Positions 6,065-57,557 of a stretch of 64,000 bases of DNA are shown piece by piece. The notes under the pieces are model-generated. The model was not told the DNA's origin and made no database searches. It saw nothing but the letters and a program-made list of their open reading frames with translations. The position numbers and the translations under genes are program-made. The first letter of the stretch is position 1, and every line of letters starts with the position of its first letter. This stretch comes from Anaerolineae bacterium (GTDB taxonomy: Bacteria > Chloroflexota > Anaerolineae > Caldilineales > Caldilineaceae), in the NCBI GenBank assembly GCA_030432295.1, contig JAUIHI010000010.1, positions 62,001 through 126,000 of the forward strand, read 5' to 3'.

Positions 6065-6532
6065 CTACACCACTCCCGATTCGTAATCCACGGGCAGGGC
6101 AACGATCTCAAACCAATAGAGACCGATGGTGCGCATCACTTCGACCAGCCCCTCAAAGGTGACGGGCTTGACAATAAAGGAATTGACGCCCAAATCATAG
6201 CTGCGCAGAATGTCCTCCTCGGCTTCGGAGGTGGTGAGAATGACGACAGGGATTTTGCGCAGATGGGGATCCCTTTTGATCTCGTCCAGGGCTTCCCGGC
6301 CATCCTTGCGGGGCATATTGAGATCGAGCAGAATCAGCCCTGGGCGGGGTGCAGTCTCTTTGCTGTAGTCGTTGCGCTGATAGAGAAAATCGAGCAACTC
6401 CTCCCCGTCTTCGACAAAATGGAGCTGGTTGGCCAGGCGGCTTTCGATCAGTGCTTCGCGTGCCAGCAGGCGGTCATCCGGGTCGTCGTCTGCGATCAGT
6501 AGGGTAATCGGTTTTGAATTGGGCATCTCCAC
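6065..6532 (-). CDS. Single-domain response regulator (CheY/Rcp1-like)
   Basis: A 155-residue stand-alone receiver without an output domain. The acidic cluster is at DDDPDD (15-20), the phospho-acceptor is Asp70 in LILLDLNMPRKDG, and the Lys sits in FIVKPVTFEGL. The insertion between strands and the RKDGREAL motif are typical of Rcp1-type regulators that partner phytochrome-like or PAS kinases. It starts 3 bp after the stop of the large PAS kinase gene and ends just before the hybrid kinase, so it probably shuttles phosphate between them (inference from order). Confidence 0.92.
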   Translation of the reverse strand: MEMPNSKPITLLIADDDPDDRLLAREALIESRLANQLHFVEDGEELLDFLYQRNDYSKETAPRPGLILLDLNMPRKDGREALDEIKRDPHLRKIPVVILTTSEAEEDILRSYDLGVNSFIVKPVTFEGLVEVMRTIGLYWFEIVALPVDYESGVV

Positions 6533-6534
6533 CT

Positions 6535-9474
6535 CTAATTTCCTTTCGCTCTTGTCTCATCCAACTGGGCAAGTGTATCTGAATCCCCGTTTTCTATATT
6601 CGGCCCTGGGGAATTCTTGGGTAAGGTCAGTATAAAACGTGTGCCCACGCCTAACTCGCTCTGGGCTGTGATGGAACCGCTGTGGCGTTCCACAATTTTG
6701 CGGGTGATGGCCAGGCCCATACCTGTGCCTTCGTAGGTGTTGCGGCCATGCAGCCGCTGAAATGGCTGGAAAATTTTGTCGTTGTAGCGGCTTTCAAAAC
6801 CTATGCCGTTGTCCTCCACAACAATTGAAACGGCCGACAGCGCAATGGCCTGACCCTTCTCTTTGGCCCCAGTCTCACTCTTCTGGCCCGACTGGCCCGG
6901 TGTTGCACTGCCGTTGGGGGCCGCTGCCCCGTTGGCTGGCTGGGCAAAGACACGCACAACCGGTGCGGTCTCCTGCCGGTGGAACTTCAGCCCGTTGCTG
7001 ATGAGATTCTGGAAAAGCTGTTGCATCTGCGCTGGGTCAGCCGCGATGGTGGGCAGGGGGCCAACTTCGACCCGTCCGCCCGTATTTTCAATCTGCGTCT
7101 CCAAATCCCGCAGCACGCCCTCGACCACACCGTTCAGATCGACAGACGAAAAGGGCCGGCCCCGTGTGGTGATGCGCGAGAGCGTCAGCAGGTCATTGAT
7201 CAGTGCCTGCATCCGGTGGGCCGCGTCCTGCATCCGGTTGAGATAGTCCAGGGATCGTTCATCCAGCCGCTCCTCGTTGAGATGCACCAGCCGATCTCCA
7301 AAGGCGGAGATTTTGCGCAGGGGTTCCTGCAGGTCGTGGGAGGCAATGTAGGCAAAGTCCTGCAACTCCCGGTTGCTGGCCTCCAACTGGACCGCATTGT
7401 GCTTCAACTGGGATTCCAGACGCAGCCGTTCAGTGATGTCCTGGCCGGTTCCCCACATACTGACGGGCGTGCCATCTTTGCCGAGCACAACTGTGCCGAT
7501 GCCCTCGATGCCCCGCTCTGTGCCATCGCCCAACAGGATGCGGAAGGTGCTATGCAGAAGCGAACGCTTTTCAACCGCTTCGTTCAGGGACTGTTGCACA
7601 GCACGCTGATCGTCCGGGTGGATCAGCGCAATAAACCCTGGGAATTGCAGGTGTGTGGCCTGGTTGCCCAGCCCCAGAATAGGGGCAAGTTCGGCGGATA
7701 TATCCACCCGATTGGAAGTCAGGTCCAAATCCCAATGGCCCATTCTGGAAAGGCTGAGGGCCTGAGCCAGTTTGACTTCGTTACGCCGACGGGCCTCTTC
7801 GGCCAGCCGCTGCTCTGTCACGTCCTGGTTTGTGCCCCACATCCGTTTGGGGCTAGGATTGCCCGACTCGTCCTCCTCCATCTCCACATAACCGCGGGTT
7901 TGGATGATACGGACTTTGCCCTCCCCATTCACAATGCGGTGATAGTAATTGAATAGTTCGCCATCGGCCAGCGCGTTCGCCACAACTGTCTTCACCAATT
8001 TCACATCATCCGGGTGGACGTATTGGAGGTATTCGTACAGCTTGAGTGACTGACTTGCAGGTTCCCGCCCAACCAGACGATACATCTCATCCGACCAGAC
8101 GACTATATCTTTTTCTATATTCCACCGCCAACTGCCTACGTGGGCCAGGGCCTGGGCTTCGTCCAGGTCTTGCTTGCTGGTGATCAGGTCCCGCTCGATC
8201 TGCTTGCGTTCGGTGATATTTTCAAAGATGGCTGCCAGGTGCTTTTCGTCCAGTGGGATAAACCAGACCTCAAAAAATGCCTCGTCTTTCTCCCCGTCCC
8301 CCGGATCGTGGATGTCGCCCATAAAGATGCGTTCCTGATGATCGAGGACGCGTTTGTAGATGGCGGGGAATTCGGTCTCCATCAATACAGGCACGGCCTG
8401 ATCAATGCGTTGGTGGAGGATCGGCTCGATGGGTTGGCCTGTGGCCCTTTCCGCGCCCCGGTTGCCCAGGATAAAGCGAAAGGAGCCGAGATCGTCCGGA
8501 TCGTCCAGGCGCATGACAGTGACGCCGTTGTGCATATTGTCCACAATGTCCCGGTAGATGCGGATGGTGGCCTCGGCTCTCTTGCGTTCGGCCACTTCGG
8601 CGGAAAGCTGGGCATTCTGCCGCCTGATCTCATCCCGGTTGCTGCGCAACTGGTCTATGATATCGGTCATACTGCTGGCCAGGCCGAAGAGCACAACAAA
8701 GTAGCTGAGAATTTTGGCAATGTGTGCCCAGTTGAAGGCAGCGTCGTAGAGTTGCTTTGACCAGGGAATAAAAAAGAGTTGGACAGCCAGATTGATAACA
8801 ATGCTGATCAGCACCCAGCGAAAGAGCGGGTCTTGCACCTGGGCGCGTTTGCGATAGTAGAGGGCAAAGGCCAGGCCCAGGGGGATCGCCACCACCAGTT
8901 CCTGGGGGCGGGGAATGGTCAAGCCCAAAAAGATGGCCTGGGGCAGGGGAACCAACACAAAAACGAGCAGGGCGCTGATGGCCAACACCCCAAGTAAGAT
9001 CAAATATTGGGGCAAACGTGCCCGCATTGCCGACTCACCTGAGCGATCTGACGAAAGAGTAGCTGCGTTGAGCAAAAAGAAACCGGCCAGCACCATCCGG
9101 GATGCCATCCAGCTCCAGGGCGTCACTTCGGTAGGCGGTGAAGGCAGAAAGAGAGAAAAGGCGGGTGATGTCAAGAAGAGATGGACCAGATCGAGCAATG
9201 TTGCGCCCAAAAAGCCAAAGGCCAGGAAGAAAAATTGGGCATCCCGTCGGCTGTGGCGGTGGTAGATCAGGCTGAGATGGGCGACAACCGCAGCCAGCAG
9301 CACGGCAATCACCTCGGAAATTGTATGCAGTTCTTCGTTTGCCTGCCAGCCGACCCGCAACAGAAAGGCCGCCGCGATTCCCAATGCGCCAAAGAGGAGC
9401 AGATAGTATACACCCTGGCCGTTGCCAAACTGCCCATCGGCGGAAGCAGGCACCTGTTTTGTGCGAATAGGCAT
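6535..9474 (-). CDS. Membrane multi-PAS sensor histidine kinase
   Basis: A 979-residue kinase. Residues about 25-275 hold roughly seven hydrophobic segments resembling MASE-type membrane sensors, followed by a coiled coil. Three PAS/PAC modules follow at about 305-425, 440-555 (VGSWRWN) and 575-690 (MGHWDLD). The HisKA domain carries His713 in YIASHDLQEPLRKI, the subtype shared with phytochrome-like kinases, and the HATPase domain occupies about 800-965 with NLISNGLKF, DNGIGF and GTGMGLAI motifs. A Gly/Ala/Ser-rich insertion lies inside the ATPase domain. It is the first gene of the cassette; the signal is unknown. Confidence 0.93.
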   Translation of the reverse strand: MPIRTKQVPASADGQFGNGQGVYYLLLFGALGIAAAFLLRVGWQANEELHTISEVIAVLLAAVVAHLSLIYHRHSRRDAQFFFLAFGFLGATLLDLVHLFLTSPAFSLFLPSPPTEVTPWSWMASRMVLAGFFLLNAATLSSDRSGESAMRARLPQYLILLGVLAISALLVFVLVPLPQAIFLGLTIPRPQELVVAIPLGLAFALYYRKRAQVQDPLFRWVLISIVINLAVQLFFIPWSKQLYDAAFNWAHIAKILSYFVVLFGLASSMTDIIDQLRSNRDEIRRQNAQLSAEVAERKRAEATIRIYRDIVDNMHNGVTVMRLDDPDDLGSFRFILGNRGAERATGQPIEPILHQRIDQAVPVLMETEFPAIYKRVLDHQERIFMGDIHDPGDGEKDEAFFEVWFIPLDEKHLAAIFENITERKQIERDLITSKQDLDEAQALAHVGSWRWNIEKDIVVWSDEMYRLVGREPASQSLKLYEYLQYVHPDDVKLVKTVVANALADGELFNYYHRIVNGEGKVRIIQTRGYVEMEEDESGNPSPKRMWGTNQDVTEQRLAEEARRRNEVKLAQALSLSRMGHWDLDLTSNRVDISAELAPILGLGNQATHLQFPGFIALIHPDDQRAVQQSLNEAVEKRSLLHSTFRILLGDGTERGIEGIGTVVLGKDGTPVSMWGTGQDITERLRLESQLKHNAVQLEASNRELQDFAYIASHDLQEPLRKISAFGDRLVHLNEERLDERSLDYLNRMQDAAHRMQALINDLLTLSRITTRGRPFSSVDLNGVVEGVLRDLETQIENTGGRVEVGPLPTIAADPAQMQQLFQNLISNGLKFHRQETAPVVRVFAQPANGAAAPNGSATPGQSGQKSETGAKEKGQAIALSAVSIVVEDNGIGFESRYNDKIFQPFQRLHGRNTYEGTGMGLAITRKIVERHSGSITAQSELGVGTRFILTLPKNSPGPNIENGDSDTLAQLDETRAKGN

Positions 9475-10110: not shown

Positions 10111-10616
10111 TTGTATTCCTCCTGATGTGAAAATAAGGACACGGATAAACACGGATGGAACAGATTCACACGGATTCAATCTGTGAAAATCTGTGTCATC
10201 TGTGGATGATTTTCGTCGTTACCGGTGTCAGCCGGTCGTGTGGCCTGTTCTGAAAATAGCTTTGTGTACACGGATCAAAAGGAACACGGATTTCTTCTGC
10301 GAAAATCTGTGCAATCTGCGTTCTGATTTTCGTTGTTATCGGTGTCAACCGGTCGTGTCGCCTGACCTGAAAATAGGAACACGGATGACACGGAAAGGAT
10401 GGATTCACACGGATTTGATCTGCGTTTATATGCGTGCATCAGCGTCCAATTCTCGACTCTGCTGCAAAAAGCCATTTGAGCCACTGATAAACGCTGATGA
10501 ACTCTGATAAAAATAGATTTCTCTCCTGAAGTTCTCTGCGTCTCCGCGGCTCTGCGGGAGAATTTGACCTTTCTGCTGTGGACTCATTCTCATTGCGGCA
10601 AAGTTTTGCGGCTGCT
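10111..10616. repeat. Intergenic degenerate repeats, including a 74-bp direct repeat
   Basis: A 506-bp gap without a credible gene. Two similar copies of a 74-75-bp unit lie at 10185-10258 and 10301-10375 (spacing 116 bp). Around them are many short words of the types ACACGGAT, ATCTGTGT, CGCTGATGA and CTCTGCG (10136-10180, 10376-10440, 10481-10512, 10533-10559). The same vocabulary recurs in other gaps of this window. It may act at transcript ends or be a mobile short repeat; no function is shown. Confidence 0.7.
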
Positions 10617-12139: not shown

Positions 12140-12297
12140 GACTTTATGCGTGACGCGTGTCGGGGGAGGGAACGGCGAGCAATTATTTCGTTCGACTACA
12201 CGGCTGGGCTGTTAGGGAGCGGATGCGGGTACAGAGTGGATAAAATCCGTGTTCCCTCCGATCCGTGTATACAAACGTATCTTCCGGGCAGGCAGCA

Positions 12298-18199: not shown

Positions 18200-19213
18200 C
18201 TACTCCGCAACGTCCAGATAGTGATAATAATCCAGCCCCTGGGCCTGCATAGCCCGCCGATAGTTGACGGCGACCGCATCGAATTTGAGGTGCAGTTCAT
18301 CGGCCAGGTCAAAGGGGACCTGCTCCGGGCGCTGGGATTCCACAATGCGCTGGTCCTGGCCGAAGATCGTATCCTCGAAGGCCTGTAGCACCGAGTCGGG
18401 TTGGTCCAGGTCGTAGTTGCGTCCGATAATGCAGTAGCCGGTGCAGCGGTTATCGGAGAGCGGCTGGCTCACAAAAAAGTAGACCATCCCCTTCTCGCCG
18501 CCCCAGCCCAGACGCAGAACAATTGTATAGGGCAGGTGCAGTTCGTAACGGCTGCGACGCTCCGGCTTGACCACTTCCTCGTTGGCAAAGACGGGGAAGT
18601 CGTCGGAGTTGGGCGCTTCCGGGCGCACGACCGAATAGTGGAGGATGTGGCCGCTGGTCTCGACGCTGTATTCGGGGACGAGGGGCCGCTCCGGGTCGCC
18701 GAGCAGGCCGGGGTGAACCCAGGGAAAGTGGCCAAAATCAGTGAAGTTTTCCACCTGGCGCGAGGCGTCGCTCTGCCAGGGAAATGGCCCGGTCTCGACG
18801 ATCTTCCAGCCGTCGTTCTCCAATTCGGGGATTTCAGGCAGGGGATAGACCGGCTCATCCAGCGCCACCCAAATCAGGCCATAGCGTTCCTGGCAGGCGT
18901 AGGTGACTGTGCGGGCTTTGCTGGGGATGGAGAGCCGGGTCTGCTGGGGAATTTTGACGCAGGCTCCCTCCCCGTTGTATTCCCAGGCGTGGTAGGGGCA
19001 GACGATACAGTCGTTGCGTACCCAGCCCAGAGAGAGGGCCGTGCCCCGGTGAATGCACAAATCGCGCATGGCGTGGGGCGTGCCGTCTGCCGTGCGCCAG
19101 ATGACCAGATGTTCGTCGAGGAGTTTTGCGGCGAAGGGCGCGTCGGGCAGGAGAGCGCGTGCATAGGCGACGGGATGCCAGCAGTGGAAGAGTTTTTCGG
19201 TGAATTTGGACAT
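18200..19213 (-). CDS. Rieske non-heme iron oxygenase, large subunit type
   Basis: About 337 residues; ATG 19213 is preferred to ATG 19219 on spacing to a GGGA site. The Rieske centre CIHRGTALSLGW...CIVCPYHAWEY supplies the Cys/His ligands of the [2Fe-2S] cluster. The mononuclear iron site is DFGHFPWVH (Asp and two His). The overall shape matches pheophorbide a oxygenase/vanillate demethylase-type oxygenases. These need a separate reductase, not seen nearby. The substrate is unknown. A decayed fragment very similar to the Rieske segment lies at 29469-29605, evidence for duplication. Confidence 0.92.
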   Translation of the reverse strand: MSKFTEKLFHCWHPVAYARALLPDAPFAAKLLDEHLVIWRTADGTPHAMRDLCIHRGTALSLGWVRNDCIVCPYHAWEYNGEGACVKIPQQTRLSIPSKARTVTYACQERYGLIWVALDEPVYPLPEIPELENDGWKIVETGPFPWQSDASRQVENFTDFGHFPWVHPGLLGDPERPLVPEYSVETSGHILHYSVVRPEAPNSDDFPVFANEEVVKPERRSRYELHLPYTIVLRLGWGGEKGMVYFFVSQPLSDNRCTGYCIIGRNYDLDQPDSVLQAFEDTIFGQDQRIVESQRPEQVPFDLADELHLKFDAVAVNYRRAMQAQGLDYYHYLDVAE

Positions 19214-26962: not shown

Positions 26963-27649
26963 TCAGACTTCCTCGATCCACGGAAAGCCATCCGGGTTGG
27001 CGTGTGCCCGCTGCCGTAGGAGTTGGTCGTCGTGGCCCCGCATCTGGTCAAGAAATGGAAAATCAGCCGGAGCCACGCTGAGCTTCGCCAGGGGTGTGAC
27101 CGGCTTGCGACTGGCCCATTGCATGCCGTGAATGAGTCTGTTGCCGGATGCGCCCGGTGTTTCTTGTTCGAAGGTCGTGCGCGGCAGAATATAGATTGTT
27201 CCTGTGCGCCAGGGCCGATGCAACAGGGCGGTCTGGCTGATGGAGAAGAAGTAGAATGGCTCGCCTGGCTCTCCCGGCGGTGTGGACAGCCGGATACAGG
27301 CGTTGTTCAACATCATTGGGTATTGGTCGCGGTCGAGAATGGCATAATAGATGGGCCAGATGCCATCCGACGCGGCGTAGACCGCAGCGCGATTGCCAAA
27401 TGCCATAATATCCACCGCCTGTCGCGGCTCGAAAACGGGTATATTTGGATTGCCAGACCCATGCATCAGGATGGGCTTGTTGTCGGCCAGGTAGCAGAGG
27501 AATTGCCACCGGGCTATGGGCAGGGAATAGGATATCTCACCCGCTTCAGGAGCCGATGTAATCTCTGTCCACAGAGCCTCATAGGCTGCGACGGTCGCAG
27601 CATCTAACTGGAGCGGCGGCCGCGGGAGATAGTAAGCAGGCAGTTGCAT
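26963..27649 (-). CDS. Hypothetical protein, NAD/ART-like beta-rich family
   Basis: A 228-residue protein with an AGGAG site before ATG 27649. Visible motifs are RWQFLCYLADNKPILMHGSGNPNIPVFEPRQAVD, FGNRAAVYAASDGIWPIYYAILDRD and GTIYILPRTTFEQE. These recur in an uncharacterised bacterial family that I can recognise but not name; the LMHGSG and AVYAASDG pattern recalls ADP-ribosyl-transferase-like folds, without proof. Cytoplasmic, no membrane segment. It is convergent with the hydrolase gene and 29 bp downstream of the membrane-sensor gene's stop. Confidence 0.7.
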   Translation of the reverse strand: MQLPAYYLPRPPLQLDAATVAAYEALWTEITSAPEAGEISYSLPIARWQFLCYLADNKPILMHGSGNPNIPVFEPRQAVDIMAFGNRAAVYAASDGIWPIYYAILDRDQYPMMLNNACIRLSTPPGEPGEPFYFFSISQTALLHRPWRTGTIYILPRTTFEQETPGASGNRLIHGMQWASRKPVTPLAKLSVAPADFPFLDQMRGHDDQLLRQRAHANPDGFPWIEEV

Positions 27650-27677
27650 AGGGGTCTCCTCGTATATATGGATTCGT

Positions 27678-29255
27678 TTATGTGGATTCGTTCAGTGCCA
27701 GCGCATGGACCCGCATCTGTTCCATCCCATTGCGCTCGGCAATGTGCGGGTCTGGCAGATACGTGAGACCGTTTACAGGCCCTGTTTTTCCGATGGCGGG
27801 ATCGGTCAGACGCAGCACCTGGGCCACCCGGTCAATGGTGCAGCGCAGGGCCTGCCGTTCGCGTATGTTATAGACCGTCCCGTCCTCCTGGCGGCCCAGG
27901 AAGAGAAAACCGATGGTTTCACCCTCTTTCTCTTTGAGCGGCAACTGAATGGCGCTGTTTTCATCCTGCCACTCTGGAGTGGCAAAGACAAGCTGCAACA
28001 CGCCGTGGCGACACAGATAGACCGCGCCACCCCTGGCCCCGTAGGCCAGAATCGCACTCTCCACCAGACGTCGGGAGATTTTGAGCGGATCGATCACATC
28101 GGCCACCTGTTGCACCTGGGCATCGAAGGCCAGCAATTGTTTCATCGGGTCCGGCTTCTCTTTGAACTGCTTGTCTACAAAGCTCTGCAGGCTGCTCTTC
28201 AACGGCGTGTAGGTCACCGTCAAAATGAATCCGGTTAGTACCACCGCGGCGTCGGACTTCTGACCGGTGACGCCCACAAACAATTTCTGTGAAAGAGTCA
28301 TCACCACAGAATAGAGACCGGCCAAAAGAGTTGTCAGCGGCACATAGACAAGGGTGCGGTTGAGGAACAGATTGATGTCCCACAGCCGGTAGCGCAGGAT
28401 GGAGGCCGCGATGGTGACGGGCACAAGCATCAGCGAGAGCGCTTCCACCAGAGTCGTCAGCAGATGGGGCAGGGTCCCCGCCATTTCCATGGCCGGGAAC
28501 CAGATGGAACCGCTAAAGCCGACCACACAGATCACCAGCACCAGTTGCAGCAGGCCAATCGTCACCCAGCGGGATTGGAGCCGTTGGATAGGCGAGGAAG
28601 CGCGCCGGTAACGATATATCTGCAAACCCGCGCAGGCGACCAGCAGAAAGACAAAAATCAGCCCCAGGAGCAAAGCCCCCGGCGCGTCCATATCCCATTC
28701 CGGATTGACCAGCGCATAGTAGGGAATAATGATGACCGCCCACAGCCCGACAGGCCAGCGCGTCCAGCGGGGCACGAAGCGGCCATCGGGAAAGGTGCAG
28801 CAGACGACCAGAAAGAGGACATACCCGACGACGGACATCAGATCGACGAGGATTCGGCCCGCGGGGTGAAGCTCGCGCAGGGCCTCCATAAAATCGGTCA
28901 TAAAAACGCCGACGAGCAGCAGTGTCAGAGAGACAAGCAGCGCGCCCCTATCCCGCGGGCGGGCCCAAAAGATGAGCGCGGCCACGCCCAGATAGATCAG
29001 CGCGATTGCCACCACCAGTGCGGTGTTGTAGGCCGCGTAGAAGTGGGCCGACAGCCCCAGGGCTTCCAGCGCGGCCACGCCCTGTGGCGTCAGCCGGTCT
29101 ACACTGCACACTTCCTCCACGCAAACGGTTACCAGGCGGGTGTATCCGTTCCAGGAGCCGCTGATCAGTGCGTTGATCGCCAGCAGCGCCGACAGATACC
29201 AGAAGATCCGCAAGGCTGGTATCCAGCGCTGGCTGGGCGGGGAAACACTTTTCAT
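27678..29255 (-). CDS. Membrane sensory protein with GAF-like C-terminus, no kinase domain
   Basis: A 525-residue protein with a GGAGGGAAAAGAGG leader before the ATG. Residues about 10-330 contain nine or ten hydrophobic segments, including LIYLGVAALIFWARPRDRGALLVSL and ILRYRLWDINLFLNRTLVYV. The latter pattern is common to 7TM-type bacterial sensor kinases (ComP-like). After about 370 comes a GAF-like domain (SRRLVESAILAYGARGGAVYLCRHGVLQLVFA ... IGFLFLGRQEDG). The protein ends there, without HisKA or ATPase domains. It may feed a separate kinase or regulator; none is adjacent. Confidence 0.78.
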   Translation of the reverse strand: MKSVSPPSQRWIPALRIFWYLSALLAINALISGSWNGYTRLVTVCVEEVCSVDRLTPQGVAALEALGLSAHFYAAYNTALVVAIALIYLGVAALIFWARPRDRGALLVSLTLLLVGVFMTDFMEALRELHPAGRILVDLMSVVGYVLFLVVCCTFPDGRFVPRWTRWPVGLWAVIIIPYYALVNPEWDMDAPGALLLGLIFVFLLVACAGLQIYRYRRASSPIQRLQSRWVTIGLLQLVLVICVVGFSGSIWFPAMEMAGTLPHLLTTLVEALSLMLVPVTIAASILRYRLWDINLFLNRTLVYVPLTTLLAGLYSVVMTLSQKLFVGVTGQKSDAAVVLTGFILTVTYTPLKSSLQSFVDKQFKEKPDPMKQLLAFDAQVQQVADVIDPLKISRRLVESAILAYGARGGAVYLCRHGVLQLVFATPEWQDENSAIQLPLKEKEGETIGFLFLGRQEDGTVYNIRERQALRCTIDRVAQVLRLTDPAIGKTGPVNGLTYLPDPHIAERNGMEQMRVHALALNEST

Positions 29256-29468
29256 CCTCTTTTCCCTCCTCTGCTGTCACCGGGACAGAGCCCTTTGCCC
29301 TGGGCCGAAGCAACTGCCCCAGGGCGTACCACTGCGCCGCTGGCTGTACAATAGCAGGCAAAGAGTTTGGCAAGCGTTTCACCGCCCGTTTGGTTTGTGT
29401 GGTGTCATAGGAACTGGCTGGAATTGGGATTAGACAATCGGAAGAAATGGGAGGACGTGAGGGAGGCA

Positions 29469-29605
29469 GTGGGTCTTCACCCTGCCCAGGGAGAGGGCCG
29501 TGCCCCGGTGAATGCACTGTTCGCGCAGGGCGTGGGGTGCGCCGCCGGCAGTCGCGCCAGATGATTGGGTGTTTGTCGAGGAGTTTGGTGGGGGTGGGGG
29601 TGGCG
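29469..29605 (-). pseudogene. Decayed fragment of a Rieske oxygenase gene
   Basis: About 135 bp closely resemble 19014-19138 within the intact Rieske gene, in the same orientation, including the segment encoding CIHRGTALSLG. Upstream and downstream the similarity stops, and the residual reading frame shifts around the GGG/CCC runs. Only part of the Rieske [2Fe-2S] segment remains, so it cannot be functional. It lies in the 29256-29707 gap between the membrane sensor and the AT-rich ATPase, at the edge of a possible insertion. Confidence 0.75.
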
Positions 29606-29650
29606 GGGAAGTACAGTGTAGTTGTGTGGAGTATCCCTTACTTCTACAAT

Positions 29651-29684
29651 GCAATGGCCTATCTCACTGACGAAAGGCCATTGC
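29651..29684 (-). terminator. 10-bp hairpin after the AT-rich ATPase gene
   Basis: 29651-29660 pairs perfectly with 29675-29684 (14-nt loop), 24 nt past the stop of the ATPase gene on the minus strand. Position supports a terminator. Confidence 0.55.
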
Positions 29685-29707
29685 GCATCAACCATATTGC
29701 TTGCTTG

Positions 29708-31189
29708 TCATTTGTCGATATCTAAACCATTTCTTAGGGCATATCTAACTTTTGGGTCACGTATTTCATAGATAACCCCACCACCTGCCGATTTTTCATT
29801 TGTTTTCCTAATCAATCCCATGTTTTCCATGGCAACCACATAGTTATTTGTTGAGCCACCGGTTTGTGCATAATTACTGAGTTTGTCTTTTGTGAATTTC
29901 ACATCATCGAGCTTGAGCAAGTGCTTTATGTAAGAATAAATATCCATAGTGTTTGCTCTGGCGTTAGATTTTCGTGGATAGTACTCGTAATAATTAAAGT
30001 TAGTAACGAACTCCCGAATTCCATTTTCTATGGCTTGATAAGTAATTTTTTTCTCTGAGTCTGCTTCGAATTGTAACTTAATGCTCTTGTCCAATAGATG
30101 CCAAAGATCTCTTGGATTCTCATTACTCATGTCATATAAAGACAATATCTCTTGCGCACATTCGGGCTCAAATATATCTTCAATGCTACTAATTCTGTTT
30201 TGTGAATAGACTTTGATCCTTTTGTTTGCAGCCTCTTTTAAACTTTGGTGATCCCAGCTAAGAGGTTGCAAAATCAGTTTTTGTGTTCGTATATTTGACT
30301 TAACAAAATTAAACGGCGTAGTCCAAGCAAACAACATAATTTTAAAATTATCATTGATCATGACCTTATTATTCGATGCAATTCCTTCGATAAACTTAGA
30401 GATCAAATCAGCATCATTATTAAATCTTGGGTCCTCATCTATTTTATCTATGATAATAACGATATCATTGATATCAGATTTTAGTATTAGCTTACTAAGC
30501 TTGTTTAGATAAAAATAACCTTTTTCATCGACTGTAAAGCTTTCATCGACCTCAGATTCAATACGTCCGAAATATTCCGAATCACCTAAATCAATCTCAG
30601 GAAGAGATGAAAAGTGCTTTGTTAGTGCATCACTAGTTACTTTGGTTGCAGCTTTTAGACCGTAATTGAGAGCTACCCTAATAAAATTATAGAGTCCGAT
30701 GGCGATTTTTTTGAATCGACTATTTTGTATATCCTTAATTTTTTCCGTCAACAAAGCCTTACTTGAAGCTCGCACAAACGTGTGCAAATACATTGACAAA
30801 TCTACTCGCTCTTCTTTTGAATACGTCCAAAACTTATTAGGCGTTGAGCTCATCCTTGCAAAAAAGGCACCAGCGATAGCTTCTGTCAAAAATTTATACA
30901 GGTTTTCTGGATCAAATTGCTGTTCAAGATTGGAAAACTCATCTATTTTCACTAGCAAAATGTCATCTGTCTCCATGCTTCTACAGACATCCAAGTTAAG
31001 GGCAGTTTTTCCTGTCCCTCTCTCCCCGGTAATGATGACAGAGCTATTAGTTAACCCCTCCCTAATAATAGAATAGTTTTGTGGTTTTTTGTATATACTT
31101 TCACCTTTATCAGTCTCACCTTCTGAGTTGTAAATTGAAAAAGGATAGCTCTCAAAACCTAAAAATTTGTAGTATGCTTCAAAGTCCAA
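29708..31189 (-). CDS. AT-rich P-loop ATPase with C-terminal winged-helix-like region
   Basis: A 493-residue protein starting at TTG 31189 (AGGAA site 7 nt before). Walker A is GERGTGKT at 55-62, Walker B is IVIIIDKIDE at 243-252, and a sensor-like segment FKIMLFAWTTPFNF follows. The start FYPFSIY-type region and the wHTH-like end (about 420-485, SNYAQTGGSTNNYVVAMENMGLIRK) suggest an AAA/STAND-type ATPase resembling Sll1717-family or ORC/Cdc6-like proteins. Codon use is strongly AT-rich, unlike all neighbours, indicating recent transfer. Such single ATPases are often defence or conflict genes, but no partner gene is present. Function is unknown. Confidence 0.75.
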   Translation of the reverse strand: MDFEAYYKFLGFESYPFSIYNSEGETDKGESIYKKPQNYSIIREGLTNSSVIITGERGTGKTALNLDVCRSMETDDILLVKIDEFSNLEQQFDPENLYKFLTEAIAGAFFARMSSTPNKFWTYSKEERVDLSMYLHTFVRASSKALLTEKIKDIQNSRFKKIAIGLYNFIRVALNYGLKAATKVTSDALTKHFSSLPEIDLGDSEYFGRIESEVDESFTVDEKGYFYLNKLSKLILKSDINDIVIIIDKIDEDPRFNNDADLISKFIEGIASNNKVMINDNFKIMLFAWTTPFNFVKSNIRTQKLILQPLSWDHQSLKEAANKRIKVYSQNRISSIEDIFEPECAQEILSLYDMSNENPRDLWHLLDKSIKLQFEADSEKKITYQAIENGIREFVTNFNYYEYYPRKSNARANTMDIYSYIKHLLKLDDVKFTKDKLSNYAQTGGSTNNYVVAMENMGLIRKTNEKSAGGGVIYEIRDPKVRYALRNGLDIDK

Positions 31190-31576
31190 TTGTGAGTTCC
31201 TATTATTATTGTTGGAAGTGGCCGACGCCCGAAGGGGGGAGATCGGTTACATTGCCATTTATTCTACGGTAAAGCTTACACTCCGTCAAACACACCCTCT
31301 CATCTGGACTAGAATTGATGACATGGTCAGCCGGAACATATGTGTCCTTCCCCCATTCCCCGCCACCTGACCAGCCCCAACGCCCCCCACGCGTGGGGCG
31401 AAGAATTCCCCTGCCGGGTCTATCCTAAATACGTAACAGACTGCGCGCCAGCGTGCGCGCGGACGGACAAGAGATGAACCGGATGTAAGCGGAGTGGCCC
31501 GCATACGGCGTCCGTATGCCCTATGCCCCATTCCGCACTCCGCATTCACAATTCCGCATTCCCTAAGGAGTCGAAG
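31190..31576. promoter_or_regulatory. Divergent region between ATPase and nifJ genes
   Basis: A 387-bp gap. The left third is AT-rich and belongs with the ATPase; the right part is GC-rich and ends with low-complexity words of the ATTCCGCA type (about 31525-31565) before the TAAGGAG site of nifJ. The composition break near 31210-31290 may mark the island edge. No gene is seen. Confidence 0.5.
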
Positions 31577-34500
31577 ATGACCCGCCAAAAAGTAACCCTT
31601 GACGGCAACGAGGCAGCGGCCTACATTGCCTACAAGACCAACGAAGTCGTAGCCATCTACCCCATCACCCCCGCCTCGCCTATGGGCGAACTGGCCGACG
31701 CCTGGGCCGCGGTGGGTGATTACAACATCTGGGGCAGCAAACCCCTGGTGGTGGAGATGCAGTCGGAAGGAGGCGCGGCCGGTGCAGTCCACGGCGCGCT
31801 GCAGACCGGCTCCCTCACCACTACCTTCACGGCCAGCCAGGGCCTGCTGCTGATGATCCCCAATATGTACAAGATCGCCGGGGAACTGACCAGCACCGTC
31901 TTTCACATCGCGGCCCGCTCTCTGGCCGCGCAGGGACTCTCCATTTTCGGCGATCACAGCGATGTGATGGCGGCCCGCAGCACGGGCTGGGGGATGCTCT
32001 TTGCCAACTCCGTCCAGGAGTGCCAGGATTTCTCCCTGATTTCCCAGGCCGCCACCCTGAAGAGCCGGGTTCCCTTCCTGCACATCTTCGACGGCTTCCG
32101 CACCAGCCACGAGATCAACAAATACGAGCAACTGGACGACGACGATATCCGCGCCCTCATCGACGACGACGCGGTGCGTGCCCATCGCTCACGGGGACTC
32201 ACCCCGGACCGCCCCTTCATTCGGGGCACGGCCCAGAATCCGGACGTCTACTTCCAGGCCCGCGAGACGGTCAACCCCTTCTACTCGGCCCTGCCCGGCA
32301 TCGTCGAGGAAGTGATGGAGCAGTTTGAAGAACAGACCGGACGGCGCTATCGCCTCTTCGAATACGTGGGTGCGCCCGACGCCGAACGGGTGATGGTGAT
32401 GATGGGTTCCGGCGCAGAGGCCGCGGAAGAGACGGTCAACTGGCTGGTGGCACAGGGCGAAAAGGTAGGGCTGATCAAAGTGCGCCTCTTCCGCCCCTTC
32501 TCGGTGGAACATCTGCTGGCTGCCCTGCCCGCGACCGTCCGTGCCATCGCCGTGCTGGATCGCACCAAAGAGCCGGGCAGCGCGGGCGAACCCCTCTACC
32601 AGGACATTGTGACCGCCCTGGCCGAAGGCTGGGAAGGACAAATGCCGAAGGTCTTTGGCGGACGCTACGGGCTTTCGTCGAAGGAATTTACGCCGGCGAT
32701 GGTCAAGGCTGTGTTTGATGAGGCGGCCAAAGCCAAACCCAAGAATCACTTCACCATCGGCATCTTCGACGACGTATCCTACACCAGCCTGGACTTCGAC
32801 CCGGACTTCGACATCGAGCCGGACAATGTAGTGCGGGCGGTCTTCTGGGGTCTCGGCTCCGACGGCACCGTCAGCGCCAACAAAAATTCCATCAAAATCA
32901 TCGGCGAAGAGACCGAGAACTTTGCCCAGGGCTACTTCGTCTACGACTCCAAGAAGTCTGGGGCGCGCACAGTCTCCCACCTGCGCTTTGGGCCGAAACC
33001 GATTCAAAGCACCTATCTCATCCGCAAAGCCAACTTTGTGGCCGTCCATCAGTTCGGCTTCCTGCGCCGCTACGATGTGCTGGCCCAGGCCGAAGAGGGC
33101 GCGACGGTTCTGCTCAACGCCCCCTATCCGCCGGAAGAGGTCTGGGAGCAACTGCCCCGGATGGTGCAGGAGCAGATCATCCGCAAGAAGCTGAAACTCT
33201 ACAACATCGACGCCTACGCCCTGGCCGCGGATCTGAACCTGGGCGTGCGCATCAACACAATTATGCAGGCCGGTTTCTTCGCTATCAGCGGCGTGCTGCC
33301 CCAGGACGAGGCCATCGAGCGCATCAAATACGCCATCCGCAAGAGCTATGGCAAGCGGGGCGAGTCGATTGTCCAGCGCAATTTCGAGGCTGTGGACGCG
33401 GCTGTGGCCCATCTGCATCTCATTCCTGTGCCCGACCTGGCCGAGAGCCGGATGGAAATGCTGCCCCCGGTCCCCGGCACTGCGCCCGCCTTTGTGCAGA
33501 ATGTGACGGCCCAGATTATCGCGGGCAACGGCGATCTGCTGCCCGTCTCCGCCCTACCCAACGACGGAACCTGGCCCAGCGCCACCACCCAATGGGAGAA
33601 GCGCAACATCGCCCTGGAAGTGCCGGTCTGGGACCCGGATGTCTGCATCCAGTGTGGCAAGTGTGTGATGGTCTGCCCCCACGCGGTCATCCGCAGCAAA
33701 GTGGGCACACCCGAAGCCTTTGCCCACGCACCGGAAGGTTTCGAGACTGCCCCGGCCCGCTGGCGGGAGATGAGCGATCTGCAATACACTCTGCAAGTGG
33801 CTATGGAAGACTGCACCGGCTGCACCCTCTGCGTGGAGGTCTGCCCGGCCAAGAACAAATCTGCGGTGGGGCGCAAGGCCATCAATATGGAACCCCAGCC
33901 GCCTATTCTTGAAAAGGGTGTGCGGGATTGGGATTTCTTTATGAGCCTGCCGGACTTTGACCGCACGGGCGCGGTCTTTGGCAACGGCAACGGCCACGTC
34001 ACAGTTGACACGCCGCCTGCCGACCACCCATCCATCAATTTCACGAATGTCAAGAACATTCAACTGCTCCAGCCTCTCTTCGAGTTTTCCGGGGCCTGTG
34101 CGGGCTGTGGCGAGACCCCCTATCTGAAGCTGATCAGCCAGCTCTACGGTGACCGCACGATTATCGCCAACGCCACCGGCTGTTCCAGCATCTACGGCGG
34201 CAACCTGCCCACCACTCCCTGGGCCACCAACGCGGACGGCCGCGGCCCGGCTTGGAGCAACAGTCTCTTTGAGGACAATGCGGAGTTTGGTCTGGGTATG
34301 CGGCTGACCCTGGAGAAGCAGCGGGGCTACGCCATCGAACTGGTGGAGCGGCTGCGCTCCTACATCGGCGACGACCTGTCCGGCGATCTCATCGCCGGGG
34401 TGACAGCCACCGACGAGATCGGTGTCCAGGCCCAGCGCTTGCGGGTGGAGGAGTTGAAGGGCACGCTCCACGGCCTGCTCTCCCTGACTCCTTCGCCGGC

Positions 34501-35245
34501 GGTTTCGGCGGCAGAATGGAAGCGCATCGAATTCGCAGCCAAAGACCTGCTCTCCCTGGCCGATGTGCTGGTGGACAAGATCGTCTGGATTATCGGCGGC
34601 GACGGCTGGGCCTACGACATCGGCTACGGCGGTCTGGACCACGTGCTGGCCAGCGGGCGCAACATCAACATTCTGGTGATGGACACGGAAGTCTACTCCA
34701 ACACCGGCGGCCAATCCTCCAAAGCCACGCCTCTGGGCGCGGTGGCCAAATTCGCGGCAGGTGGCAAGCCCACCCCCAAGAAGGATTTGGGGATGATGGC
34801 CATGAGCTACGGCAATGTCTATGTGGCCGAGATTGCGATGGGCGCCAGCGACAGCCAGACGGTCAAGGCGATTGAGGAGGCGGTCTCCTACGACGGCCCG
34901 TCGATTATTGTGGCCTATGCCCACTGCATCGCCCACGGCATCGATATGGCCAAGGGGATGGAGCAGCAGAATCTGGCCACCCAATCCGGCTACTGGCCCC
35001 TCTACCGCTACGACCCCCGGCTGAAGGAAGCGGGCAAGAATCCCCTGCAACTGGACAGCCGAGCGCCGAAGATTCCGCTGCAAACCTACGCCTACAACGA
35101 GAATCGCTATCGGATGCTCGCCAAGAGCAACCCGGAAGTAGCCAAAGAACTTCTCGCCGACGCCCAGGAAGCGGTCAACGAACGCTGGCAGCGCTATGTG
35201 GAATTGGCAAAACCGAAAGTGGCAGCTACAGACAAGACGGCATAA
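31577..35245 (+). CDS. nifJ: Pyruvate:ferredoxin (flavodoxin) oxidoreductase
   Basis: A 1222-residue single-chain PFOR from ATG 31577 (AAGGAG site). Domain I begins with AYIAYKTNEVVAIYPITPASPMGEL, the pyruvate/thiamine contact segment. Two ferredoxin-type [4Fe-4S] motifs follow: CIQCGKCVMVCP (about 693) and CTGCTLCVEVCP (about 757). The TPP domain has FSGACAGCGETPYLKL and ATGCSSIYGG, supplying the proximal cluster and TPP-binding residues, and GDGWAYDIGYGGLDH with NTGGQSSKATPLGAVAKFA. It oxidises pyruvate to acetyl-CoA and CO2 with reduced ferredoxin. The length equals family standard, with no truncation. Confidence 0.97.
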   Translation: MTRQKVTLDGNEAAAYIAYKTNEVVAIYPITPASPMGELADAWAAVGDYNIWGSKPLVVEMQSEGGAAGAVHGALQTGSLTTTFTASQGLLLMIPNMYKIAGELTSTVFHIAARSLAAQGLSIFGDHSDVMAARSTGWGMLFANSVQECQDFSLISQAATLKSRVPFLHIFDGFRTSHEINKYEQLDDDDIRALIDDDAVRAHRSRGLTPDRPFIRGTAQNPDVYFQARETVNPFYSALPGIVEEVMEQFEEQTGRRYRLFEYVGAPDAERVMVMMGSGAEAAEETVNWLVAQGEKVGLIKVRLFRPFSVEHLLAALPATVRAIAVLDRTKEPGSAGEPLYQDIVTALAEGWEGQMPKVFGGRYGLSSKEFTPAMVKAVFDEAAKAKPKNHFTIGIFDDVSYTSLDFDPDFDIEPDNVVRAVFWGLGSDGTVSANKNSIKIIGEETENFAQGYFVYDSKKSGARTVSHLRFGPKPIQSTYLIRKANFVAVHQFGFLRRYDVLAQAEEGATVLLNAPYPPEEVWEQLPRMVQEQIIRKKLKLYNIDAYALAADLNLGVRINTIMQAGFFAISGVLPQDEAIERIKYAIRKSYGKRGESIVQRNFEAVDAAVAHLHLIPVPDLAESRMEMLPPVPGTAPAFVQNVTAQIIAGNGDLLPVSALPNDGTWPSATTQWEKRNIALEVPVWDPDVCIQCGKCVMVCPHAVIRSKVGTPEAFAHAPEGFETAPARWREMSDLQYTLQVAMEDCTGCTLCVEVCPAKNKSAVGRKAINMEPQPPILEKGVRDWDFFMSLPDFDRTGAVFGNGNGHVTVDTPPADHPSINFTNVKNIQLLQPLFEFSGACAGCGETPYLKLISQLYGDRTIIANATGCSSIYGGNLPTTPWATNADGRGPAWSNSLFEDNAEFGLGMRLTLEKQRGYAIELVERLRSYIGDDLSGDLIAGVTATDEIGVQAQRLRVEELKGTLHGLLSLTPSPAVSAAEWKRIEFAAKDLLSLADVLVDKIVWIIGGDGWAYDIGYGGLDHVLASGRNINILVMDTEVYSNTGGQSSKATPLGAVAKFAAGGKPTPKKDLGMMAMSYGNVYVAEIAMGASDSQTVKAIEEAVSYDGPSIIVAYAHCIAHGIDMAKGMEQQNLATQSGYWPLYRYDPRLKEAGKNPLQLDSRAPKIPLQTYAYNENRYRMLAKSNPEVAKELLADAQEAVNERWQRYVELAKPKVAATDKTA

Positions 35246-36369: not shown

Positions 36370-36440
36370 GAATAGAACGCGGATGACGCGGATTGGGCGG
36401 ATGTCAGCGGATTTTGTTTGAGTCGAACCGTAAGGCCAGT

Positions 36441-49511: not shown

Positions 49512-51914
49512 GGCTCTTACGGCTTCCCCCACCTGACTTTCCAGGAATACCTGACCGCCCGCCACATTGCTGCCCAGCCCGACCCGGACTATATCGATTT
49601 GGTGATGGTCGATCTGCACAAGGCCTGGTGGCGGGAGGTGCATCTGCTGGTGATTGGGCAACTTGCATATTGCGATAAAAGTGGTGGCGTTTCAAAACTC
49701 TTCCTCAACATTCTGAGTCTTCGTCAACCGCCTTCTTTACTATGTACATTACCTGTCAGAGGATGGACTGACTATCATCTACGTCATCACTATTCAAGGT
49801 ATCCTTTTGCTGTCTTCTTAATGTATATACACATTCTGATAATATGGCTTCCGGAATTCCTACTTGCGGAGATCATAAATTACCTTGCACAGGCCGCCCA
49901 TTGGCAATATATGGATCAATTGATTTGGCTAATAGACCGAGAATTGTACCTTATAGCGACAAGTTGCATGGAAAATAGAGATTTGCATAATAGTTCTCGA
50001 GTTAGGCGTATTATATCGGCGAATGTAAATGCGAAACTTCTGCATATCGTTCGTGATCCTGGGTTGTATGGGATTCAGTTGCTAGGCGTTCAATATAACA
50101 ATTTTCTTACGGAAGTTGAGAGAATTCAGCCCTTTTTATCTCTAATCACGTCAAAAATGGTGGAAGCAGTCGTCGATAAAATCCCCATTAGCATATGGAC
50201 TGGAATGAGCGAAGCCGCTGTGGCTGTCGTTGGTGCAAGCGGGATTCCAACACCGAAAGTGGTATCGATTCTATCGAAGAACATGAACAATGGACACTGG
50301 CCGTTCCAACTGAACGTAGCAATAAGCCTAGTTCAACTACAGCAGGCTTCGCTACAGACTACGATCGCGCTAGTACAAGGTCTGCGAAGTAGTGCAGTCG
50401 GAATTGAGGAATATGCGGTCTTGAGCTTAAGACAATTGAAGCAGAGGTGGCCACACTTCGCTGATGACTTACTCCTAATGCTGCACCATACAGATTCCGA
50501 AGTTAGACTGTTCGCGGTTATGAGTTTGGGCCTATTAGGGAAGACCTCTTCTGAAGTGGAGGCCAGTTTAGCTGCCGCGCTGAGTGATAATAATCCCAGC
50601 GTTTGCTTTGAGGCTGTGTCTAGTCTGGAAAAGCTCGGCTATATGTCAAGAAATCCAGAGAAGATACTCGTGCAGGCTATGAATGCGTCTAGTCAACAGA
50701 AATACAGTTTGGCTTTTGTTTTGGCAAAACTTGGACAGAGGTTAAGGGTCCATGAAAACCTACTAATTGACCTTTTAATAACAGACCCTTCATTCATTAG
50801 GCAAGACATAGTAAGGGCATTGAGAGGCTTAACATCCATATCTCCTGAAGGAGCTAATGTTTTAGAAAGATACCTGAGTGACGATGATCCTTCGGTGAAG
50901 TTGGTTGCAGCAGTTACTCTTGCTAAACTGGGCCTTGCATCTGACGATGCAATATTGATATTGATAGATTTCCTTAGTGATTCCGAGTGGTACAGAAGGC
51001 GAGAGGCGGCGTATGGCCTAGGGAAATGTGGTCAGGCATCAAGGTGGATTATACCGGCTTTGCTAGGAGCGTTACACGATTCTGATTTGCACGTGCGGTC
51101 AGCAGCAGCGAAGAGTCTGGGAGAGTCACGACAGGCAACGGAAGAAGTGGTGTCAGCGCTGGTAGGTGCGTTGGGCGATTCTGATTATTATGTGCGGGAA
51201 GCAGCGGCTGGCAGTCTGGTTCAGTTATGGCAAGCATCGTCTGAGGTGATACTTGTGCTGTTGAGAGCGTTGGGCGATTCTTCCTGGCTAGTGCGGCAGG
51301 CGGCAGCGGGCAGTCTGGGCCAGTTGGGGCAGGCATCGGTGGAGGTGATGCCGCAGATAGCGACGGCGCTGGTGGCGGCGTTGGGCGATTCTTCCTGGCT
51401 AGTGCGGCAGGCAGCAGCGGGCAGTCTGGGCCAACTAGGGAATGCGTCGGAGCAGGTTGTATCGGCGCTGGTGGGAGTGTTGTCTGATTCTGAGTGGCGA
51501 GTGCGACAAGAGGCGGCCAGCAGTCTGGGCCAACTGGAGATCGAAGACGAAGCTCAACTCCGCACCGTCCTCATCGCCCTCAACCGCCGCCTGCACGACC
51601 GGGACGATGACGTGCGCCGGGCCGCCTTGACCGCCATCCGCCGTCTGCTGGACGGGCGGCAAATCCCCGGCTATCGCTGGGTTCCCATTCGGGAACAGCA
51701 ACGCCGGGCGCGGCTACGCAAGCGCATCGGTTGGGCGGTCTTAGGTTTGGGGTTGGTGGTGTTGCCCCTGTGCAGCGACGGGGTCGTCAATGGACAATTG
51801 GACTTTGCCGCTGGGTGGGTGCGGGTTGTGGGTGGGCTGGCCGGGTTGGCGTCCCTTGCCGCGGGCGTCGATCTGTGGCTTGCCCATCGCCGCCGCCCGC
51901 CCTGGGATCGGTGA
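49512..51914 (+). CDS. C-terminal NACHT end plus HEAT-repeat array and two membrane helices (remnant)
   Basis: The frame resumes with YGFPHLTFQEYLTARHIAAQPDPDYIDLVM, a typical NACHT C-terminal winged-helix end, and runs about 800 codons to 51914. Residues after about 200 form HEAT repeats (for example GDSSWLVRQAAAGSLGQLGQA, repeated several times). Two membrane helices close the protein (LGLGLVVLPLC and VVGGLAGLASLAAGVDLW). The middle (49.7-51.0 kb) is AT-rich; the 51.07-51.53 kb repeats are nearly identical at DNA level. No start codon with an obvious site is seen for this frame, so it may be untranslated unless a frameshift occurs. Confidence 0.7.
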   Translation, partial: GSYGFPHLTFQEYLTARHIAAQPDPDYIDLVMVDLHKAWWREVHLLVIGQLAYCDKSGGVSKLFLNILSLRQPPSLLCTLPVRGWTDYHLRHHYSRYPFAVFLMYIHILIIWLPEFLLAEIINYLAQAAHWQYMDQLIWLIDRELYLIATSCMENRDLHNSSRVRRIISANVNAKLLHIVRDPGLYGIQLLGVQYNNFLTEVERIQPFLSLITSKMVEAVVDKIPISIWTGMSEAAVAVVGASGIPTPKVVSILSKNMNNGHWPFQLNVAISLVQLQQASLQTTIALVQGLRSSAVGIEEYAVLSLRQLKQRWPHFADDLLLMLHHTDSEVRLFAVMSLGLLGKTSSEVEASLAAALSDNNPSVCFEAVSSLEKLGYMSRNPEKILVQAMNASSQQKYSLAFVLAKLGQRLRVHENLLIDLLITDPSFIRQDIVRALRGLTSISPEGANVLERYLSDDDPSVKLVAAVTLAKLGLASDDAILILIDFLSDSEWYRRREAAYGLGKCGQASRWIIPALLGALHDSDLHVRSAAAKSLGESRQATEEVVSALVGALGDSDYYVREAAAGSLVQLWQASSEVILVLLRALGDSSWLVRQAAAGSLGQLGQASVEVMPQIATALVAALGDSSWLVRQAAAGSLGQLGNASEQVVSALVGVLSDSEWRVRQEAASSLGQLEIEDEAQLRTVLIALNRRLHDRDDDVRRAALTAIRRLLDGRQIPGYRWVPIREQQRRARLRKRIGWAVLGLGLVVLPLCSDGVVNGQLDFAAGWVRVVGGLAGLASLAAGVDLWLAHRRRPPWDR

Positions 51915-51929
51915 CGCAAATTCGTGCTT

Positions 51930-52700
51930 ACTTGCCCTCACTCCAGCGCCTTCGGCGCCCCCCTCTCCCAGCCGTGGCGATTGGGGGTGGGGCGTGTTGG
52001 TTGGACTGAGAGAGGGGAGTCTACGCCGACGATTTCTGCGTCACAGAACCACCACTCGTCGGCACGAACGCACAAATCGCCGTCCTTCCCCCGCCTCTCC
52101 CAGAGCAGCCAACAGCACAGACGAGACGGCGCTATCTCTGGGAGAGGCGGGGGCGTCCCGCAAACAGTCGACCTTCCCTTCACTGGCTAGGGGGTGGTGA
52201 GGGCGGGGAATGCTGGTCGGACGGGGGAGGGGAGTCTACGCCGACGATTTCTACGCCACAGAACCACCAATCGTCGGGGGGAACGCACAAATCGCCGACC
52301 TTCCCCGCCTCTCCCAGAGCAGCCAACAGCACAGACGAACCCGCGCTATCTCTGGGAGAGGTGGGGGCGTCCGACAATCAGCCGACCTTCCCTTCACTGG
52401 CTAGGGGGTGGTGAGGGTACGAGAGGGGCGCTACGCCGACGATTTCTGCGCCACAGAACCACCATCCGTCGGGGGGAATGCACGAATCGCCGACCTTCCC
52501 CGCCTCTCCCAGAGCAGCTAACAGCACAGACGAACCCGCTCCATCTCTGGGAGAGGTGGGGGCGTCCCTCAATCAGCCGACCTTCCGTTCACTGACTAGG
52601 GGGTGGTGAGGGTAGAGCGTTTTGGTCAGACTGGGAGAGGCGGGGGCGACCCGCCAACTGCACCTAACCCGTCAACGGGTAGGGGGCGGTGAGGGATGGC
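51930..52700. repeat. Tandem array of about 195-215-bp hairpin-containing units
   Basis: Three units start at 52021, 52236 and 52431 (lengths 215, 195 and about 190 bp), with partial units on both sides (from about 51938, and 52630-52700). Each unit contains a 15-bp perfect stem, for example 52091-52105 with 52136-52150, around a loop of about 30 nt with a CAGCCAACAGCACAGACGA word. Both strands stay open by chance, so apparent reading frames are discounted. The array directly follows the NACHT-HEAT remnant and fills the 932-bp gap to the GH4 gene. Confidence 0.8.
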
Positions 52701-57499: not shown

Positions 57500-57557
57500 C
57501 CGTCGAACAAATATCCACGCAAATCCATCCCTTCCGTGCCATCCGCGTTCTATCCTT

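Follow-up and report, generated by a model that had tools for sequence, protein, structure and literature searches.

A putative DS-41-family anti-phage ATPase in a small variable slot beside the pyruvate:ferredoxin oxidoreductase gene of an Anaerolineae bacterium

In the present study, a 64-kb stretch of DNA from an Anaerolineae bacterium (hereafter, the window) was found to carry an AT-rich gene for a P-loop ATPase that belongs by profile to the DS-41/Sll1717 family, is foreign in composition, was found in none of the 60 relatives searched, and lies between borders common to congeners, three of which hold other genes in the same slot. From these comparisons it is likely that the gene encodes a single-gene anti-phage ATPase and that it reached the genome by horizontal transfer from an AT-rich donor. 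It would have entered a variable slot, specific to the genus, that is bounded by an old Rieske remnant and the gene for pyruvate:ferredoxin oxidoreductase (PFOR), at a point just downstream of a promoter-like element. By its sequence the protein is a further member of a published family; the novelty lies in its place in the genome, together with a small variable slot that has a possible fixed promoter. A very recently described anti-phage family is thereby recorded from a genome of high GC content, into which the gene shows clear signs of having been transferred from a distant group; a small site is also pointed out where close relatives have different defence or toxin-antitoxin genes.

Results

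An AT-rich ATPase gene between GC-rich neighbours

The ATPase gene and its two native neighbours are as follows.

27678-29255, minus strand: 525-aa gene, native left-hand neighbour; no Pfam or NCBIfam match; its orthologue in congener G005 is 89% identical.
29708-31189, minus strand: DS-41-family P-loop (STAND/ORC-like AAA+) ATPase, 493 aa, TTG start.
31577-35245, plus strand: PFOR, pyruvate:ferredoxin (flavodoxin) oxidoreductase, native right-hand neighbour; the listed open reading frame opens at 31523.

The 493-residue, TTG-started reading frame at 29708-31189 had been proposed in an initial annotation made from the sequence, which gave no strand; the frame is present on the minus strand, with an AGGA a few bases ahead of its start codon, and transcription of the PFOR gene points away from it. 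The same annotation described the gene as strongly AT-rich between GC-rich neighbours, and base composition bore this out. Of all 1480-bp stretches in the window, the one with the lowest GC fraction (0.351) begins at 29729, within the ATPase gene; segments of this length clear of the gene have a mean of 0.588 (sd 0.038, minimum 0.443). Third-position GC of the ATPase gene is 34%. In five genes nearby, read in frame, it is 74-80%, with an overall GC of 60-64%; these are the genes for PFOR, a DHOdh-like protein, the 525-aa protein, a hydrolase, and the Rieske protein. Along the window, GC drops at about 29600-29700 and recovers at about 31325-31350, roughly where composition breaks had been placed before (near 29640 and 31210-31290), and homology comparison delimited the block not common to congeners to about 29653-31346. 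After the ATPase, the second AT-richest 1480-bp stretch of the window is 49639-51118 (GC 0.44).

Family membership of the ATPase

When the protein was compared with the NCBIfam models, it matched NF053860 (DS41_1_antiphage) at 415.1 bits (cut-off 370), over profile positions 1-448 of 448, and the Sll1717-family P-loop ATPase subfamily NF047389 at 129 bits (cut-off 75). NF053860 is an equivalog model named for anti-phage function and, judging from that name, was probably called after DS-41 of DefensePredictor. DS-41 is among the DefensePredictor systems validated against E. coli phages, its homologues reach even Halobacteria, and it is named once in the main text of that paper (PMC13092281). 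The window ATPase resembles the DS-41 family in its full-length match above the curated cut-off, in being a P-loop ATPase of about 490-500 aa, and in having a gene of lower GC than its surroundings. It differs in that it shares 23% identity with the E. coli conjugative-plasmid member examined (QMR33199.1, 414.7 bits in NF053860), and in its rarity in the sampled class, where 2 of 396 genomes exceed the cut-off, its own included. The activity of DS-41 need not extend to the window ATPase, a member 23% identical or more distant. NF047389, whose cut-off is likewise passed, is a broader family than NF053860, and membership in it gives no function because the name Sll1717 was not found in the literature searched.

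Other searches were less specific. No Pfam STAND or ORC-CDC6-like model exceeded its cut-off, and two fell just short, namely PF24389 (ORC-CDC6-like, 25.2 bits against 27) and PF20720 (nSTAND3, 25.2 against 27.2); for this reason, the protein is called STAND-like only. PADLOC 2.0.0 returned a chance-level match alone (typeIV_Cas11, E 0.024), PHROGs gave two weak clamp-loader matches, and a PDB sequence search with the ATPase alignment gave weak P-loop matches only (best E 0.0018, VirB11). No nuclease domain was recognised in the Pfam, NCBIfam, or PADLOC searches. A membrane-acting effector helix was also considered and set aside: the top 19-residue hydropathy of the ATPase is 0.97 (the usual threshold for a membrane span is about 1.6), and the maxima lie elsewhere in its relatives. 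No partner gene was seen beside the ATPase in the window, and inspection by eye of the open reading frame lists of loci L045, L046, L048, L082, and L086 revealed no common partner.

Motifs and predicted fold

The P-loop motifs of the protein are intact. Walker A reads GERGTGKT (residues 55-62) and the Walker B-like motif reads IIIDKIDED, in which D248, D251, E252, and D253 are invariant; GxRGxGKT and DxxDED are invariant in six sequences (the window ATPase and five relatives). Across the same alignment, NPRDL (358-362) is invariant, as is FNYYEYYPR within the near-invariant FNYYEYYPRK (398-407).

An AlphaFold2 model built from the six sequences was of middling quality (mean pLDDT 70.4, pTM 0.58, residues 141-210 below 50). 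A P-loop core was recognised in it, with a helical insert (about residues 94-236, partly of low confidence) separating Walker A from Walker B, along with a lid-like region of helices and, at the C-terminus, a part that resembles a winged helix (about residues 417-486). The top fold matches in the PDB were archaeal Orc/Cdc6 proteins (1w5t, Orc2, Z 14.4, rmsd 4.5, 325 residues aligned; 2qby, Z 14.2), and Z scores up to 14 can be attained by mostly helical models through common arrangement alone. The next matches included a Pyrococcus Walker-type ATPase and CED-4 (4m9s, Z 13.1, 307 residues), followed at lower scores by TnsC, plant NLRs, RdrA, and a chain of the BrxC/BrxB/PglZ complex. When the model was searched with Foldseek, the top match had an E value of 1.9e-6, and the query-normalised TM scores were low, at most 0.37 among the matches listed. 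The model resembles the STAND/ORC-Cdc6 clade of AAA+ proteins (CED-4, plant NLRs, archaeal Orc1/Cdc6, the BrxC/BrxB/PglZ chain) at Z 10.6-14.4 among the best 50 matches, with alignments that cover the whole model in some matches and the ATPase part alone in others, and a winged-helix-like end is predicted in it, as in that clade. It differs from the clade in its low identity (8-17% among the matches listed), in the helical insert, and in that no fused sensor or effector domain was recognised. The predicted fold agrees with the earlier description of the protein as STAND/AAA-like, without proving it.

Distribution, relatives, and probable origin

When 6 congeners, 30 other members of the family, and 24 of the class were searched with the ATPase protein, none of the 60 relatives carried it, and its own genome was the sole carrier among the 61. 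In a wider sample of 396 class genomes, the two that exceeded the NF053860 cut-off were its own (G000) and G399, whose protein is 22% identical to the window ATPase. Some NF053860 match at E ≤ 0.001 was obtained in at least 76 of the 396, including other loci of G000, G001, and G005; this count is a lower bound, as at most four candidates per genome were scored.

The best relative found is that of the gammaproteobacterium IMCC1989 (Alteromonadales; 64% identity), and a relative on an IMG/VR contig is 58% identical; the genes for both are also AT-rich (GC 37% and 33%, respectively). Because these two resemble the window ATPase far more closely than does the G399 protein, and are both AT-rich, the gene was most likely acquired from beyond this lineage. 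Some relatives adjoin genes of a defence or phage type. Directly downstream of the G399 relative are an N6/N4 methyltransferase and a CfrBI-type restriction endonuclease, directly upstream of the L048 relative are a Schlafen-group-3 helicase and a C5 methyltransferase, and the IMG/VR relative has S24/HTH and M78/HTH regulators as neighbours. By eye, the IMCC1989 relative is surrounded by ordinary-looking genes. Plasmid and phage collections gave no match at 1e-5 with the window ATPase as query. With the IMG/VR relative as query, five E. coli plasmids were matched at about 25%, no phage record was matched, and no E. coli genome was matched by DNA; the L048 relative retrieved the same five plasmids at 23%.

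Borders of the insertion

The borders of the block, and a hairpin at its left edge, are as follows.

29463-29652, no strand assigned: left border, decayed Rieske remnant and flank; common to G006 (83%) and partly to G005 (29463-29601, 81%).
29651-29684, minus strand: strong hairpin just past the ATPase stop codon, GCAATGGCCT/AGGCCATTGC, a plain 10-bp stem.
31345-31420, plus strand: right border, short intergenic repeat by the PFOR gene; also found in G001, in G006, and in the slot of G005.

At the left border, 29479-29552 is 85% identical to 19020-19093 in the Rieske gene of the window, and 29554-29607 is 76% identical to 19094-19147 of the same gene; CIHRGTALSLG is still legible, and the reading frame is broken by frameshift. 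The window and G005 are 87.5% identical across 27474-29601. The initial annotation had described a decayed Rieske duplicate at the edge of an AT-rich island. The remnant is real and lies 3′ of the ATPase gene; however, it is native flank rather than a piece of the insertion, and it is older than the insertion, because both G005 and G006 have the remnant and no ATPase. Around the ATPase stop codon, the region 29630-29710 folded as DNA with a z score of -5.1. The hairpin there was found to have no terminator-like T-run, and 29645-29710 had no match in the six congeners searched.

At the right border, homology restarts at 31347-31353 (G006 and G001; G006 from 31347) and spans the PFOR gene. The border repeat occurs in two copies each in G001 and G005, with partial matches elsewhere in the ATPase-bearing genome (contig C56) and in G004. 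The copies lie at 7520-7574 and 8400-8466 of locus L042 (G005) and at 6452-6519 and 7333-7381 of locus L043 (G001); the two copies of each pair, about 880 bp apart, enclose a 126-aa gene and a neighbour without a Pfam match.

A variable slot beside the PFOR gene in congeners

The distance from border to border is 1694 bases in the ATPase-bearing genome, 2127 in G006, and 3156 in G005. In the first of these, the slot holds the ATPase gene. In G006 it holds RelE and HTH_3 genes, a gene for a 175-aa protein without a Pfam match, and an integron-integrase N-terminal fragment; in G005, a PIN_3 protein, an adjoining 91-aa open reading frame, and further frames without a Pfam match. The contig of G001 ends inside the slot, such that only the right border is seen, and the part present holds two genes without a Pfam match and a type III methyltransferase (536 bits). 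The slots of G001 and G005 share a 932-bp block, 89% identical, with the 126-aa gene, and their contents are therefore not wholly different. The contigs of G002 and G003 end within the PFOR gene. A candidate MazF-like remnant in the G006 slot was weak (PemK_toxin, 14.6 bits, cut-off 23.1, E 0.038) and carries no weight here. The slot genes of the congeners have 44-58% GC. The PFOR and 525-aa genes have 60-63%, and from this level the congener slot genes depart less strongly than the ATPase gene does. With regard to the PFOR gene itself, the single-chain form is 89-92% identical in other congeners, and no close copy was found in G004 or G005; G005 retains short PFOR matches near the slot.

Comparison with sister genomes had been suggested earlier as a search for an empty site. 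Among the four genomes with any readable slot, none showed an empty site; in the sisters other genes take up the slot, and the main genes differ. A sister with the ATPase gene at the same place in native composition, the finding that would have spoken against insertion, was encountered in no congener searched.

PFOR genes of other genera were also surveyed. Fifteen genomes had a close PFOR, and upstream DNA was obtained from 11 of them (9 genera), with open reading frames listed for all. Ten chosen upstream proteins, from 9 of the 11 genomes, were assigned by Pfam to alanine dehydrogenase, an AIR-synthase-related (HypE-like) protein, a HypF-type protein, CBS proteins (three), TetR, PEPCK, a PD40 protein, and a regulator with nSTAND1 and Trans_reg_C. 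None of these ten is a restriction-modification or toxin-antitoxin gene product, and we therefore limit the claim for the slot to the genus; a family-wide hotspot by the PFOR gene was not supported by the 11 genomes. Defence hotspots occur at fixed chromosomal sites. The slot is like them in having common borders that enclose different defence or toxin-antitoxin genes, and unlike them in being small (about 1.7-3.2 kb in G000, G006, and G005) and in having been recognised in a single genus. No paper on defence hotspots in Chloroflexota was found in the literature searched. The evidence for the slot comes from four genomes.

A promoter-like element upstream of the ATPase gene

One further feature lies between the ATPase gene and the right border.

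31261-31289, minus strand: promoter-like element, TTGACG, 17 bp, TAGAAT, about 70 bp upstream of the ATPase start.

The 33-bp piece 31260-31292 is identical at 28 of 33 positions to 7537-7569 of L043 in G001, a score that 0 of 1000 shuffles reached. In the ATPase-bearing genome the element (TTGACG-17-TAGAAT) reads towards the ATPase gene, and in G001 its counterpart (TTGACG-17-TAAAAT) reads towards the methyltransferase gene. When 12 genomes were searched with the 33-bp pattern, allowing up to 3 mismatches, one copy was found in G000, one in G001, and none in the 10 others; a reversed control gave no occurrence. Because the pattern was derived from both G000 and G001, these two copies match by construction, and the absence elsewhere is the informative part. 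Against a promoter, promoter-like matches in the AT-rich region numbered 10, versus 4.8 expected, and one of the others, inside the gene, scores as high as the element. On the simplest reading of these two genomes, the element would belong to the locus and the genes behind it would have been exchanged; the element is probably older than the ATPase insertion.

A more far-reaching possibility is that the site is a miniature slot for cargo, equipped with a promoter that stays fixed. Unrelated defence genes (the DS-41 ATPase in G000, the type III methyltransferase in G001) that bring no transposase or integrase would have been swapped next to a housekeeping gene, each behind the one conserved promoter-like element, such that a newcomer would be expressed at once. 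We regard this only as a tentative and rather doubtful reading. The distance from the element to the PFOR start is 285 bp in G000 versus 1281 bp in G001, and in G001 the block shared with G005, framed by border repeats, sits between the element and the PFOR gene; both observations weigh against it. Should the shared element prove real, the site would illustrate how defence genes that arrive without a promoter of their own come to be expressed.

Proposed action of the ATPase and alternative explanations

The defence reading of the ATPase is well supported. The initial annotation had proposed an acquired, single-gene STAND/AAA-like ATPase with a winged helix as a putative phage-defence gene, and this proposal is favoured by the NF053860 match, the lack of a match in the 60 relatives, the nearest relatives found, which belong to another phylum, and the fold matches to archaeal ORC/Cdc6 chains and CED-4 (Z 12-14). 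Also counted in its favour are the borders common to G005 and G006, the right border in G001, and the type III methyltransferase, PIN_3, RelE, HTH_3, and integrase fragment in the slot. In the model that we propose, the protein would most likely be a sensor of the STAND/ORC-like type that is kept autoinhibited and has its ATP-binding site at the Walker motifs; it would detect an infection signal and would then rearrange or oligomerise; its C-terminal winged helix would act on DNA or on a host process, such that phage replication stops. Of these elements, the ATPase motifs are read from the sequence, and the predicted structure points to the winged helix; the trigger, the oligomerisation, and any effect on phage are inferred. 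Because no nuclease or transmembrane effector was recognised, the model is weakest at the effector step.

The same protein could instead be a STAND-type regulator or a DNA-binding AAA+ protein whose role lies outside defence (for example, in transcription or replication control), carried as a neutral imported passenger, with a family name that reflects one tested member. Its fold is common to Orc1/Cdc6 initiators and TnsC ATPases as well as to immune STANDs, its predicted winged-helix-like part suggests DNA binding, and the ordinary-looking genes around the IMCC1989 relative fit such a role. However, the protein scores 45 bits above the cut-off of an equivalog model that is named for anti-phage function, some relatives adjoin restriction-modification genes or phage-type regulators, and the congener slots carry defence or toxin-antitoxin genes, such that a non-defence role appears unlikely. 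As for the route of entry, the ATPase gene might be a cassette put in by an integron-type integrase, with a decayed cassette array at the locus. The cargoes are small, the integrase fragment in the G006 slot scores 102 bits (C46:7272-7532, L079), and G006 has a full-length integron integrase elsewhere (467 bits, cut-off 265, C111:18597-19535, L072). Against this, the ATPase-bearing genome has no integron-integrase match above the cut-off (best 55.3 bits against 265), and by eye the hairpin past the ATPase stop codon lacks the attC core sites; we judge a cassette origin to be quite improbable. More improbable still is an assembly artefact in which a foreign piece was joined into the contig. Such an error could account for a compositionally foreign gene that is in no congener, but both flanks match congeners right up to the edges of the block, an element 71 bp from the start codon is common to G001 at the same locus, and the genome is listed as 100% complete with 2.3% contamination.

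Repeats around the insertion and elsewhere in the window

No transposase, integrase, or target-site duplication was found to mark the ATPase insertion, and the sole match of an Rfam scan was at chance level. Within 29400-31600 there are 10 inverted repeat pairs, three of which join both flanks and are not collinear; the best inverted flank-to-flank alignment is G-rich and was reached by 6 of 1000 shuffles, and terminal inverted repeats of a mobile element are therefore suggestive at most. Direct repeats of the flanks were at chance level (813 of 1000 shuffles). An inverted repeat in G006 (L044, about 6234-6340) was rejected as an attC site: its core sites face the wrong way, and its fold (z -0.98) is no better than that of shuffles.

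Elsewhere in the window, scattered repeats of the ACACGGAT and GCGGAT types occur in direct and inverted orientation (10139-10435; 10243-10293 with 12243-12293; 36372-36415 with 57510-57553). Tandem related repeats with a spacing of about 99-214 bp were also seen at 51093-52614, possibly within a repeat-protein gene.
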